In this document: positions 40,901 to 55,900 of the stretch, in pieces
How the letters are laid out: every line of letters starts with the position of its first letter
Position numbering within the stretch: the first letter of the stretch is position 1
Assembly (NCBI RefSeq): GCF_041260155.1
Contig: NW_027248385.1
Span: 124,501-188,500, forward strand
Length of the DNA stretch: 64,000 nt
Direction of reading: 5' to 3'
From: Ptychodera flava
Taxonomy: Eukaryota > Hemichordata > Enteropneusta > Ptychoderidae
The notes under the pieces: generated by a model
Databases searched by the model: none
What the model was told of the DNA's origin: nothing
What the model saw: only the letters and a program-made list of their open reading frames with translations
Translations under genes and position numbers: made by a program

Positions 40901-43900
40901 TAAAACTTATTGAAGCTGGTTCAAGTACTTTATTGGCAGGCTTTTCCTCCCAAAAAGCATTAGCATTTTCAAGACGATCAGATGCATTTGTTCGAATTCA
41001 CTTATTCGCATGTGATCTTGAATACCATTTAAAAATATGCACATAACGCAAATACAAGATTGCGTCAATCACATTTTCAGATGGACCTGAAATAACGTTA
41101 TCTGACGTCGACAACATTGGACTTGAAGGCAGACCTTTCACCAAGTACTGTGAAGTCAGTGGTAATCCCATTGCAAGCAGCGTACAATGGAAATACGGCG
41201 ATGTAGTGGTTTCTGAAAATCATACGTTGGCGTTCACTCCCCAGAGAAACCAAGAGGGGGCGTACACGTGTGTCGCAACGGTTGTGTTTTGGGATGGTAC
41301 TCAGGAAGTAACTGCAGCCTCCTTCGACTTGGTTGTACAGTGTGAGTGTACATGCTCTGTCGTCTGCCATCTTGAACCTTCATTTGTCCCTGTTTTTATT
41401 TAGGATCCTGTTCGCTGTTTCTTTTCTCTTTATTGCTTTTCTAGATATGTCCCCAATGTCAATGCGACGCTGCATATTAATTTTAAACATGAACTCCTTA
41501 ACATGGTCGTTTGTTGATCACAGAGGTTAGCACAATAATAGGTGAATTCGACATATGTCATGAGGTGTTCCTAATTTTTGCACATGTACAAGTAAAATGT
41601 GTGTACCCTTTAATCTAGGATTTGTTATAAATGACTAAAAAAAAATAAATTATGACATATGACAAGTCAAGCGGAGAATTAAAAGATGAGAAAAAGCAGT
41701 ATAGAAATAGCTACAGGTCAGACAACTGCAAATAATGATGATTAAGGCAGAGAATATAAAACTATGTAAGATTTAGCAAGAATGTCAATATCTGAAACTG
41801 CCAAATGCGAAATTTTTATTTTCAGATTTACCCGGCGTAATGGTTGAAGAGAAAATTCTGACTGTGAAGGAAGGCGAAAATGTGACCTTGAACTGCGAAA
41901 TAGATTCCAAGCCGGCAGTAGTTTATCATAACTGGACCAAAGATGACGCTGTTGTGTCCACAGACTTAAAACACGTACTTGGCAACGTCCAACGATATGA
42001 CACAGGAATATACACGTGTATCGCTGTTAACGAATTGCATGATGGGACATTGGGTGAAGGGGACAACAAAACGGAAGTAATCGTTGAATGTAAGTCTGAA
42101 AATATGTTGACACACTGATAAAATACCTTACACAATGCATGTGAGAGAGATTCCTTCTAGCTATATAGGTATTCTGCAGTGAATTTGATCCAAAAGTTTT
42201 ACAAAAATTGACATGAGTAGATATATATTTGATCCCGACAAAATTTGTTTAGCAAATTTGCAATTATCTAATATTCATTCGTTCTTTTCACGAACGCATT
42301 TCAAGATATCCCGGATGTCAGCATCGATATCGGAGCTCCGATTATTAAAGAGGATGAAACGGCGATGTTCACTTGCAAAATTGATTCAAATCCCAATGTT
42401 ACATACCATAACTGGACGAAAGATGGCGTCGTCGTGTCCACAGACCTAAACCTCACCATCGCGAACGCCCAACGTCAGCATACTGGCACTTACCAGTGCA
42501 TTGCTGGCAATGTGTTCTATGATGGAACGACAGGCACGGGATCCAGTGCCACTAATCTCACTGTTCAATGTATGTATTTAAGACTGGCAGTTTCATTGAT
42601 TTTAAATGCAGTGCAGTTATTGTAGCAGGATTACGAATGCACGTTACAAACACATGACAGATAAAGTTGAGAATTCTTGATTGCTCGCTCGCTTAAAAAC
42701 TGTCAGGAAACTATCACAAATAGAAACACAGTTACAAATACAATTATGATAAGCTGTGTAAGAATAACATTCAAGTTTACAGTAGAGTTTCCTGTAAACA
42801 TAGCCTTATTTCAAAATCCAGGCAAGCCATGTATTTCTCACAGATATCAAAACAAGATATCTATAATTTTCAAGGTCTCTGCCATTATGTTAATGTTCTT
42901 TGAAAAGTATTCTTGGCCACTCTAGATCTTCTGTAATCAACAATAATTTGTTCATTAAACGCACTTTGCTGCTCATATTTATTTATTTCGAAAAAAGGCA
43001 GCTGATTTACAACTTGTAAAAAAACTGTAAAAAATATTACATGTACGGAAACGACATTCAGTTCACATCCGATACTGGCGTATTTACAAAAATCTTCTCA
43101 GAAAAGTGTTACAATTCATGCGGTAGCCTTCGGGATATTAGACTAAGACACTGAAGCAGAGTCAAGTCAAAAGCTCAAAACTACACTTTGCAACCACTTT
43201 GCCTAAGCCAATATTGAAATTTCAGTATTGTGCCAGCCAATATATATTAGCAACCTATCATACATTATCGATTTACAGATGCCCCTGCTGTGAAAGTTGA
43301 CATGAATAGTGTAACTGTGAAGGAAGGTGAAAACGTAACCTTTGACTGCGAAATTGATTCCGACCCGGATGTAGTCTACCATAACTGGACGAAAGGTGGC
43401 GCTGTCGTGTCAACAGACTTATCATATATGATTGAAAAGGTCCAACGACATGACGATGGAATCTACTATTGCATCGCTGGTAATGAACTTTACGATGGGA
43501 CATCTGGCACAGGACAAAATGGAACCGAAGTGAACGTTGAATGTAAGTCTGGAAACCTTCCATGTAGGGAATCTTCTAAAATAAAAGTCTGCAATGTTCA
43601 GGATTCACCATAAGAATCTTTTTTTTTCATATTCCAGAAAACAATGAATCAATCAATAAGAAAAAATGAATGCCGATCACAAAATAGACATCAAATCAGT
43701 GCAAATGTAACTGAAACCATAAGATAGATGCATATTCATCGTCAGCAACATAATAAAGGCTGAGAGAGAGAGAGAGAAAAGAGAGAGAGAGAGAGAGAGA
43801 GAGAGAGAGAGAGAGAGAGATGATGATGATGATGATGTTGTCGTTATGATAATGTGCACACATGCTAAGTTGTAGATGAAATTAATTTTTGCTATAAACA

Positions 43901-52900: not shown

Positions 52901-55900
52901 ACATGTTCTTCAGCCAACTGTTATCTGAGACAGACTGAACAAAAGACGGACAGACAGAAGAAGACAGAAGAGGAAAAGACAGACAGACAGACAGACAGAT
53001 AGACAGGCAGGCAGACAGAGATAGATAGATAGATAGATAGATAGATAGATAGATAGATAGATAGATAGATAGATAGATAGATAGATAGATAGATAGATAG
53101 ATAGATAGATAGATAGATAGATAGATAGATAGATAGATAGATAGATAGATAGATAGATAGATAGATAGATAGATAGATAGATAGATAGATAGATAGATAG
53201 ATAGATAGAAAGGTAGGTAGGTAGGTAGGTAGGTAGGTAGGTAGGTAGATAGATAGATAGATAGATAGATAGATAGATAGATAGATAGATAGATAGATAG
53301 ATAGACAGACAGACAGACAGACAGACAGACAGACAGACAGACAGACAGACAGACAGACAGAGAGATAGATAGATAGATAGATAGATAGATAGATAGATAG
53401 ATAGATAGATAGATAGATAGATAGATAGGTAGGTAGGTAGGTAGGTAGGTAGATAGATAGATAGATAGATAGATAGATAGATAGATAGATAGATAGATAG
53501 ATAGATAGATAGATAGATAGATAGACAGACAGACAGACAGACAGATAGACAGACAGACAGATAGATAGATAGATAGATAGATAGATAGATAGATAGATAG
53601 ATAGATAGATAGATAGATAGATAGATAGATAGATAGAAAAATAGACAGATAGACATACAGACAGACAGACAGATAGTTTGACACAGACAAACACTAATAC
53701 AGACAGGTTTGCAGACGGAAAAACTCGCAAGCTTGCATAGGCACAGACTATTAGATATAAATGTATGTCTTGCAAAGGATTGATTGGTTGATACAAGGAT
53801 TGCAATACATTTGCAGATACACCAGATGTAAACATAGAGAGCGAAGCATCGAAAATAAAGGAAGGAGAAACAGCGAAATTAACATGTAGAATAGAGTCAA
53901 ACCCGGAGGCGACGGTCCACAACTGGACGAAAGATGGCGTTATCGTGTCTACAGGCTTAAACCTTACGATTGGAAATGCCCGACGGCTCGATTCTGGTCT
54001 CTACGAGTGCATTGCTGTTAATACGTTCTACGATGGAACGACAGGAGTGGCATACTATAGGACGGAACTAAGTGTTCAATGTACGTCTGAAAATTTATAT
54101 ATAATATTATATATATATATATATATATATATATATATATATATATATATAACTATATATATATAACTATATATATATATATATATATATATATATATAT
54201 ATATATATATATATATATATATATATATATATATATATATATATATATATAGTATACAGATGTCCTTGCTTGAAATTTCACTGCTCTATGCTATAATCAG
54301 CGAGTTATGTAACACAAATTACTTCAAGAGATTTGTGTAATAAGGAGTTTATAATACCAAGTAATTGGAGTGCATTTAACAGCAAAAAAGACATACTTTT
54401 ATGATCAGTGTTTGTAAATATGATGTGTCTGATGTTGACTTTCAATTTACAGATTTCCCAAACGTTACTGTTGATGAGAAACTGGTGAAAATTAAGGAAG
54501 GTGGAAATGCAACCTTGAAATGTGAAATTGATTCCAACCCGGAAGTCACTTTCCATAACTGGACCAAGGATGGCGCTGTCCTGTCTACATATCTGACCCA
54601 TACCATCGGGAACGTCAACCGGCTTGACTCTGGGTTGTACACGTGTATTGCTGGCAACACTTTGTACGATGGAACCACAGGAATATCAAACAGTACAGCC
54701 GAATTGAGCGTTGAATGTATGGATTCACATTTTACTACATCTCTGATTTACTTTTCCTTATTTATGAATATCTCAAAAGTTTCATTGATTGATTCAATAA
54801 TTTCCAATCTTGGAGCAAACAAAATCGGAATTAGCCACTAGGAATAGAGTAAACGAGACAAACTACCGGTAGATTTATTTCCTGTGCAGAAAACAAAACA
54901 ATGTAAAGTATTTGATGTGTGGAGATTTGCTCAGCGTTGAAAAATCCAGATGCGAGAAGACACTTACCGTATTGTTATAAGTGGAAAATATTTGCAAAAG
55001 GCAAACGCAGGTTTTAATTATCCGACAGGGTAAGATCACCTCTTTGCCATGCATTGAAACAGATCTCCGAGGTATTTGTTGTTCTAAGGTGCTCCGTCGA
55101 CCCGGAAGGAATGATAAAGTACAGACTTTGACACTGATATTGTGTCAAAATGATGAGAAATACCATTTCAGTTTCATTACAATAAACCACAATGCAATGT
55201 TGAATACACAGGAATTTGTTATTCAATGGATTGTCAATAGATTGTTGATAACGACTTTATTATGAGTAACATTGCCCGTTTTATTAGTTAAGTAAATCGA
55301 CAGCATTTCTGCTACGACGATCAAGACTAGTCGAGAAACAGGAATAAAATAGGCAGAAATTATAACTGTGTCAACATCCTAGAGCATTTTGCTGTGAGTT
55401 CAAGAAAGTATTTCCGATTGATAAATACATATTTCATGGGACGTTTATTCCCGTTATTGTCAACAGATTTAGCTGTCACAGAAAGCCATGGACCATCCGG
55501 CGCAGTCGTAGAAGGTGTAAACAAAACCATGATTAGGTGTACCGTGACTGACGGGGTACCTGATCCACATACCATCACGCTGTTCCACGTGAATGAAACG
55601 GTGAACCGGGTCGACAGCACTGAAAGCCCGAACGGGGTCACGAGCCACACCTTTGACCTCGGGGTCACGCAGCGCTGGCACAACGGCAGCTACTACTGTG
55701 AAACCAAAACAAGATTCGAGGACAACAGCGAGGAAAGTGAAATATCTGACGAAATATCGGTGATCGTTCACTGTGAGTACCCCATACATCACGGTTACTC
55801 TACCCCAGAGTAGGAAAAGAGTAGTAATGCATACATAGCCTTTTTCCCGTCTTCCCACAATGTATTGCTGTTGCCGTAATAAGCATCATATACACACTCA

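Follow-up and report, generated by a model that had tools for sequence, protein, structure and literature searches.

A tandem array of 15 immunoglobulin (Ig) exons lies on the plus strand of contig NW_027248385.1, within the window analyzed here, a stretch of 64,000 nucleotides (positions 124,501 to 188,500 of the contig) whose own numbering is used throughout. The exons, located at 41826-54716 and named P9-P23 after the numbering of the initial annotation, alternate between two types, and in one block of the array they have been copied together with their introns. The array probably encodes the extracellular repeat region of a long, single-pass receptor or adhesion protein of the immunoglobulin superfamily (IgSF), the product of one animal gene, and seems to have grown by duplication of exon pairs and by gene conversion. 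The intron-rich character of the IgSF genes suggests an animal origin; the single continuous transcript, and the membrane topology and function considered below, are inferred.

Fifteen Ig exons in tandem

All 15 exons were found where the initial annotation had placed them, flanked in every case by AG and GT splice sites (acceptor and donor, respectively). Each begins and ends in phase 1 (symmetric phase 1-1), with one Ig domain per exon. The odd-type exons are P9 (41826-42089), P11 (43279-43542), P13 (44461-44723), P15 (46921-47183), P17 (49367-49629), P19 (50722-50985), P21 (52107-52370), and P23 (54453-54716). The even-type exons are P10 (42306-42569), P12 (43910-44172), P14 (44932-45195), P16 (48818-49081), P18 (50193-50456), P20 (51532-51795), and P22 (53817-54080). 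The donor of P17, P19, and P21 (TTCAGT, followed by GTATGT) was missed by the scripted pattern and was set by reading the sequence. A length of 88 codons (264 bp), which had been given for every exon, holds for 11 of the 15; P12, P13, P15, and P17 are 263 bp long, with one-base deletions at alignment columns 189, 202, 38, and 61, respectively. No in-frame stops made by substitution occur in the 15 exon translations, where codons with gaps are read as X. A 26-base core pattern, with up to three mismatches allowed, has 15 matches in the window, one per exon, compared with a maximum of 0 in 100 dinucleotide shuffles.

The Ig identity of these domains is supported by profile scores and by conserved residues. 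Pfam gathering scores for both Ig_2 and Ig_3 were exceeded by all five of the array exons scanned (P9, P11, P16, P18, and P19); for P9, where the scanned stretch included 49 upstream intron bases, the scores were 43.1 and 42.6 bits. The core C, W, G (before the second Cys), and C are invariant in the 15 translations, with X codons set aside; within the D-x-G-x-Y-x-C motif, D and Y vary. N-x-S/T sites number 49 over the 15 domains. A predicted glycosylation site, N-W-T, is present at the core Trp in 15 of 15 array domains, and the residue that creates it is missing from the four aligned Ig exons outside the array. For the 16 exon pairs compared, ratios of nonsynonymous to synonymous divergence (dN/dS) range from 0.20 to 0.72.

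Two alternating exon types

For whole exons, pairwise DNA identity averages 68% between odd exons and 75% between even exons, and is lowest, at 63%, between odd and even exons. Labelling by parity ranks first among the 6435 possible 8/7 labellings, in agreement with the alternation described in the initial annotation. Furthermore, odd and even exons form separate clades in maximum-likelihood trees, the test by which that description was to stand or fall, with support for the split of 87/96 (DNA) and 85/90 (protein), which for whole exons is not strong by the program's standard. The motifs that had been named for the two types in the second half of the array hold in part. The 13-residue motif of the even exons is exact in P16 and P20, with one change in P18 and four in P22, and NATLKCEI of the odd exons is exact in P19, P21, and P23, and frameshifted in P17. 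The D of the odd-type motif DFPNV came from reading the acceptor G; in the split codon the residue is D ahead of P19 and Y ahead of P17, P21, and P23.

The two-type signal is located in the first third of the exon. At six of the 87 amino-acid columns (3, 6, 10, 11, 18, and 24) no residue is common to the odd and even types. The exon was divided, only after its identity profile had been seen, into columns 1-92, 93-158, and 159-264. The parity split is strongly supported, at 99/98, in columns 1-92 only; within them, a grouping of P16-P21 as one clade is rejected by the approximately unbiased (AU) test (p = 0.0035). Parity ranks 778 of 6435 in columns 93-158, where the best tree groups P16-P21 with weak support (52/78), and 14 of 6435 in columns 159-264, where a P16-P21 clade is not rejected (p = 0.061). 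Synonymous differences between odd and even exons are lower in codons 32-44, a stretch picked after the fact, than elsewhere (0.42 versus 0.63), and 102 of 10 000 random codon sets are as low. Codon 44 is TCT in all of P15-P23, and TCC or TCA in P9-P14, irrespective of type. The pattern in codons 32-44 suggests exchange between odd and even neighbors in the middle of the exon.

Exon pairs copied with their introns

Three tandem pair units, with their introns, make up the block from P16, which opens it, to P21, which closes it (48812-52377, plus strand). In a self-comparison by BLAST, 48812-50992 aligns with 50187-52377 over a continuous 2240 columns at 84% identity; the match begins 6 bp before P16 and P18 and stops 7 bp after P19 and P21. 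The block thus consists of three even-intron-odd units, two of them linked by copied long introns. Introns 17-18 and 19-20 (named by their flanking exons) differ by a Kimura two-parameter (K2P) distance of 0.109, with 90% identity over 544 aligned sites compared with 74% in a shuffled control. For the copied introns within the units, 16-17, 18-19, and 20-21, the corresponding values are K2P 0.163-0.204 and 82-85% identity, with 75-76% after shuffling. Spacings of 1375 and 1339 bp between the starts of P16, P18, and P20 (48818, 50193, and 51532), as originally noted, are correct.

The initial annotation had also noticed that intron text near 49760-49880 recurs at 51100-51220, and this is confirmed over 100 nt at 93% identity. 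The shared part of intron 17-18 extends over 49745-49905 (plus strand), recurring at 51085-51252 and, more diverged, at 52610-52790. Its interpretation as a special element was set aside; it is the well-kept part of the copied introns 17-18 and 19-20 and, in diverged form, of intron 21-22, which lies before P22 and keeps an older stretch of the same intron. Clearly copied introns are confined to the three pairs of P16-P21. The proposal that exon pairs were duplicated along with their introns is therefore supported for these six exons, and is not supported for P9-P15, where no homology of flanking introns was detected.

The array is a mix of ages. Synonymous divergence (dS) was computed for 16 of the 105 exon pairs, and is 0.05 for P17/P19, 0.20-0.28 among P16, P18, and P20, and 0.28-0.30 for P21 against P17 and P19. 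Values of 0.17 and 0.27 were obtained for P10/P12 and P12/P14, and seven of the 16 pairs lie at 0.69-1.23. P22 and P23 are older copies. Duplication had been called recent, a description that suits at most P16-P21 (dS 0.05-0.30, with the youngest introns ∼11% diverged) and does not extend to the other compared pairs (dS 0.17-1.23).

Similar exons between dissimilar introns

A different pattern is found in the first half of the array. P10, P12, and P14 have exon identities of 83-91% (dS 0.17-0.46), and their BLAST matches end within ∼15 bp of the exon edges: 42293-42578 with 43897-44181 for P10/P12, 42300-42576 with 44926-45202 for P10/P14, and 43898-44178 with 44920-45201 for P12/P14. Their flanks, taken up to 600 bp, have no similarity among the three besides one masked-repeat match. 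Introns 10-11 and 12-13 align at 0.815 identity, no better than the shuffled level of 0.816, and for the introns of P9-P15 neither BLAST nor the flank comparison gave matches other than at simple repeats. Within the exons, P10 and P12 share an unbroken 90 bp of identity (columns 68-157) and have 16 differences in columns 1-67.

Several apparent similarities outside the exons were set aside. Flank matches of P12/P14 and P11/P13 (40 columns, 100%) lie at GA repeats and, from their length and place, were judged to be masked letters matching one another; those of P12/P22 and P14/P22 are likewise at repeats. The global identity of introns 11-12 and 13-14 (0.873, shuffled 0.741), from an alignment with repeats unmasked, was discounted as driven by GA repeats. 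The flank upstream of P22 also resembles those of P10, P16, P18, and P20 over 19-31 columns, but these short matches were not used.

The lengths of identical runs were tested against those obtained when sites were permuted (2000 permutations, 105 exon pairs, best 14 pairs listed). With all sites, global p values were 0.000 for P16-P22, 0.042 for P20-P22, 0.046 for P16-P20, and 0.100 for P10-P12, and at least 0.30 for the remaining 10 of these 14 pairs. With third positions, they were 0.004 for P16-P22 (columns 170-230), 0.086 for P20-P22, 0.984 for P16-P20, and 0.997 for P10-P12. Exon-limited gene conversion fits P10, P12, and P14 better than unequal crossing-over of pairs with introns, a conclusion that is supported but not proven. 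It is drawn for the first half mainly because intron homology is missing, and for P16/P22 because of the run test.

An alternative is that the entire array arose by unequal crossing-over of whole pairs, with the older introns diverged past recognition and conversion unneeded. Crossing-over of this kind holds for P16-P21, intron 21-22 retains a remnant of intron homology, and the seven compared pairs with dS of 0.69-1.23 are in a range where introns are expected to be unalignable. We nevertheless regard it as unlikely, since the dS values of P10/P12 and P12/P14 are comparable to those among P16, P18, and P20, whose introns still align above their shuffled controls, and yet introns 10-11 and 12-13 do not rise above the shuffled level, and the first-half introns do not match one another beyond simple repeats.

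Simple repeats and insertions are also features of the introns in the array. Microsatellites of AGAT/AGAC, GA, and TA occur at 52928-53676, 43762-43820, 44852-44891, and 54096-54256. Intron 14-15 holds an insertion-like element (45210-46607, no strand assigned) with 41-nt terminal inverted repeats that are 90% complementary, and intron 15-16 holds another (47291-48536, no strand assigned) with 36-nt terminal inverted repeats that are 92% complementary. Both sit at the border between the array halves, and it is our guess that these insertions kept the halves from recombining.

How the array may have grown

Pair duplication and exon-confined conversion can be combined in a single model, which is probably correct. 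The array derives from one odd-even domain pair, and its 264-bp Ig exons of phase 1-1 allow exons or pairs to be gained or lost without breaking the frame. It grew by tandem duplication of pairs with introns, as is still visible in P16-P21, and underwent partial homogenization through short gene-conversion tracts confined to exons (P10/P12/P14 and P16/P22). Under this model the first third of each domain still sets the two types apart, and the middle, with its core Trp and the N-x-T site of 15 of 15 domains, has been evened out. By analogy with CEA, the array is likely to serve as a stalk or a binding array, repetitive and glycosylated, by which N-terminal domains are kept off the membrane.

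Several points weigh against this model. The frame is broken in four of the 15 exons (P12, P13, P15, and P17), where the one-base deletions may be sequencing errors or mark decaying exons. The P10-P12 run is not significant after correction, either with all sites or with third positions, for which only P16-P22 passes. The three-part split of the exon was post hoc, and parity is not rejected in columns 93-158 and 159-264 (AU p = 0.119 and 0.113), so that conversion between odd and even exons is only suggested.

A further alternative is an array of the Dscam type, in which exons or pair cassettes serve as alternatives, selected through splicing or through promoters of their own, and are not all joined in one protein. 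Dscam and chelicerate sDscam genes contain tandem Ig exons and two-exon cassettes (PMC4835542 and PMC3236188), and exons of phase 1-1 could be skipped freely. This arrangement seems very unlikely here. Eleven of the 15 exons have a length divisible by three, so the frame does not force exclusion, and the 14 introns contain no first-exon-like open reading frames (ORFs; signal-peptide-like, phase 1) compared with 0.2 expected by chance, by a simple hydropathy criterion of unmeasured sensitivity. Signs of conversion are found in the present array, whereas a study of the two Daphnia Dscam arrays found none (PMC3236188). Finally, an assembly artefact (uncollapsed haplotypes or false tandem duplication) is extremely improbable: although the locus is repetitive, with long microsatellites, and the one-base deletions resemble an imperfect consensus, between adjoining units, 9-11% of aligned sites differ and 12-41 gap events occur, which is above expectation for two alleles, and most exon pairs are far more diverged than that.

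To a bolder proposal we give only a small chance. The array could be the length-polymorphic, self-homogenizing ectodomain of an invertebrate recognition receptor, in which the number of pairs varies between individuals, intronic short tandem repeats feed recombination, exon-confined conversion keeps the glycosylated core uniform, and the interface-forming first third keeps the types apart. There are apparently two modes of repeat growth in one gene, with pairs copied together with their introns and exons homogenized without them. Such a gene lets unequal crossing-over be told from gene conversion within one protein, and the idea of an odd/even interface becomes testable.

Surroundings of the array

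Upstream of the array, seven Ig-like exons lie on the plus strand at ∼35.9, 36.6, 37.8, 38.5, 39.0, 40.2, and 41.1 kb (35835-41345, edges approximate), compared with the eight implied by the numbering of the initial annotation. Six were found by profile and one, at 35.9 kb, by ORF reading; this is a candidate position for an N-terminal IgV-like domain of the CEACAM kind. The 36.6-kb exon has a weak profile score (E = 0.38) and, as the sole upstream exon scanned with Pfam, passed the cut-off for Ig_2 only. Downstream on the same strand are a weakly Ig-like exon at 55478-55795 (Ig_3 27.5 bits, under the cut-off of 30), an I-set-like Ig exon at 56875-57120 (Ig_3 64.7 bits), and a predicted transmembrane exon at 57561-57656, which encodes a 20-residue segment with a mean hydropathy of 3.27 and has a GTAAGT donor after it. 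Together, the Ig-like exons upstream and the transmembrane exon downstream point to a long IgSF protein that crosses the membrane once, with a layout resembling that of the CEACAM A/B arrays.

Elsewhere in the window, the minus strand carries a tandem duplicate of the first part of a related Ig gene, at 5413-10129 and 13159-18980, in which 5413-8152 is 81% identical to 13159-15855 and 8474-10129 is 87% identical to 17333-18980; its Ig exons near 7.8 and 17.7 kb appear frame-broken. Tandem repeats with periods of ∼145 and ∼179 bp are found at 11571-12644 and 450-1328. An open ORF of 179 amino acids at 63133-63672 (plus strand) has no Pfam match at E = 0.001; it may resemble Crypton-derived domains. 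There was no match at the Rfam gathering score anywhere in the window. Searches for relatives gave 15 and 8 pattern matches in viral contigs (with the exon alignment and P21, respectively) and 33 in genome contigs (with P20), none of which was confirmed by tblastn. Among the papers listed by literature searches, none was recognizable as describing this gene, a negative that is weak because the searches were made without a species name.

Comparison with known systems

A layout of alternating Ig exon pairs is already known from the human CEA family, and CEA itself has three A-B pairs. The best match in the PDB is to CEA (1e07), with E = 1e-12 for P18 as a single sequence and 1e-38 for the profile. 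The CEACAM family comes closest in layout: its members combine a V-like domain at the N terminus with varying numbers of IgC-like domains of two types, encoded by A and B exons (PMC2832619). The present array likewise alternates between two types of IgC-like domain, each on a single exon, but it has 15 domains compared with the 0-6 IgC-like domains given in that account for most members other than PSG. The profile also matches Robo, MDGA1, contactins, Dscam, and titin strongly. With such matches to IgSF proteins besides CEA, the comparison does not establish that the gene descends from the CEACAM line, and the resemblance is one of likeness and not of membership.

Other families share particular features with the array. 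Dscam and chelicerate sDscam have tandem Ig exons within one gene, but there the exons are used as alternatives, and no conversion was found in Daphnia arrays 4 and 6 (PMC3236188). The 5' cassettes of chelicerate sDscam are described as having their own promoters (PMC4835542), in contrast with the lack of first-exon-like ORFs, by the simple criterion above, in the introns of this array. In the sea urchin Sp185/333 family, GA and GAT short tandem repeats are reported beside genes and segmental duplications (PMC5103432), comparable to the GA, AGAT/AGAC, and TA repeats in the introns here; whole genes are duplicated in that family, and exon pairs within one gene in this case. Complement receptor CR1, as described in PMC5736761, is likewise a membrane receptor with a higher-order domain repeat, in which insertion or deletion of long homologous repeats gives size alleles between people. 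CR1 has 28 short consensus repeat (SCR) domains in four units, whereas the array has Ig domains, two per unit. If the number of pairs does differ between individuals, the array would parallel, with Ig domains, the size alleles of CR1.

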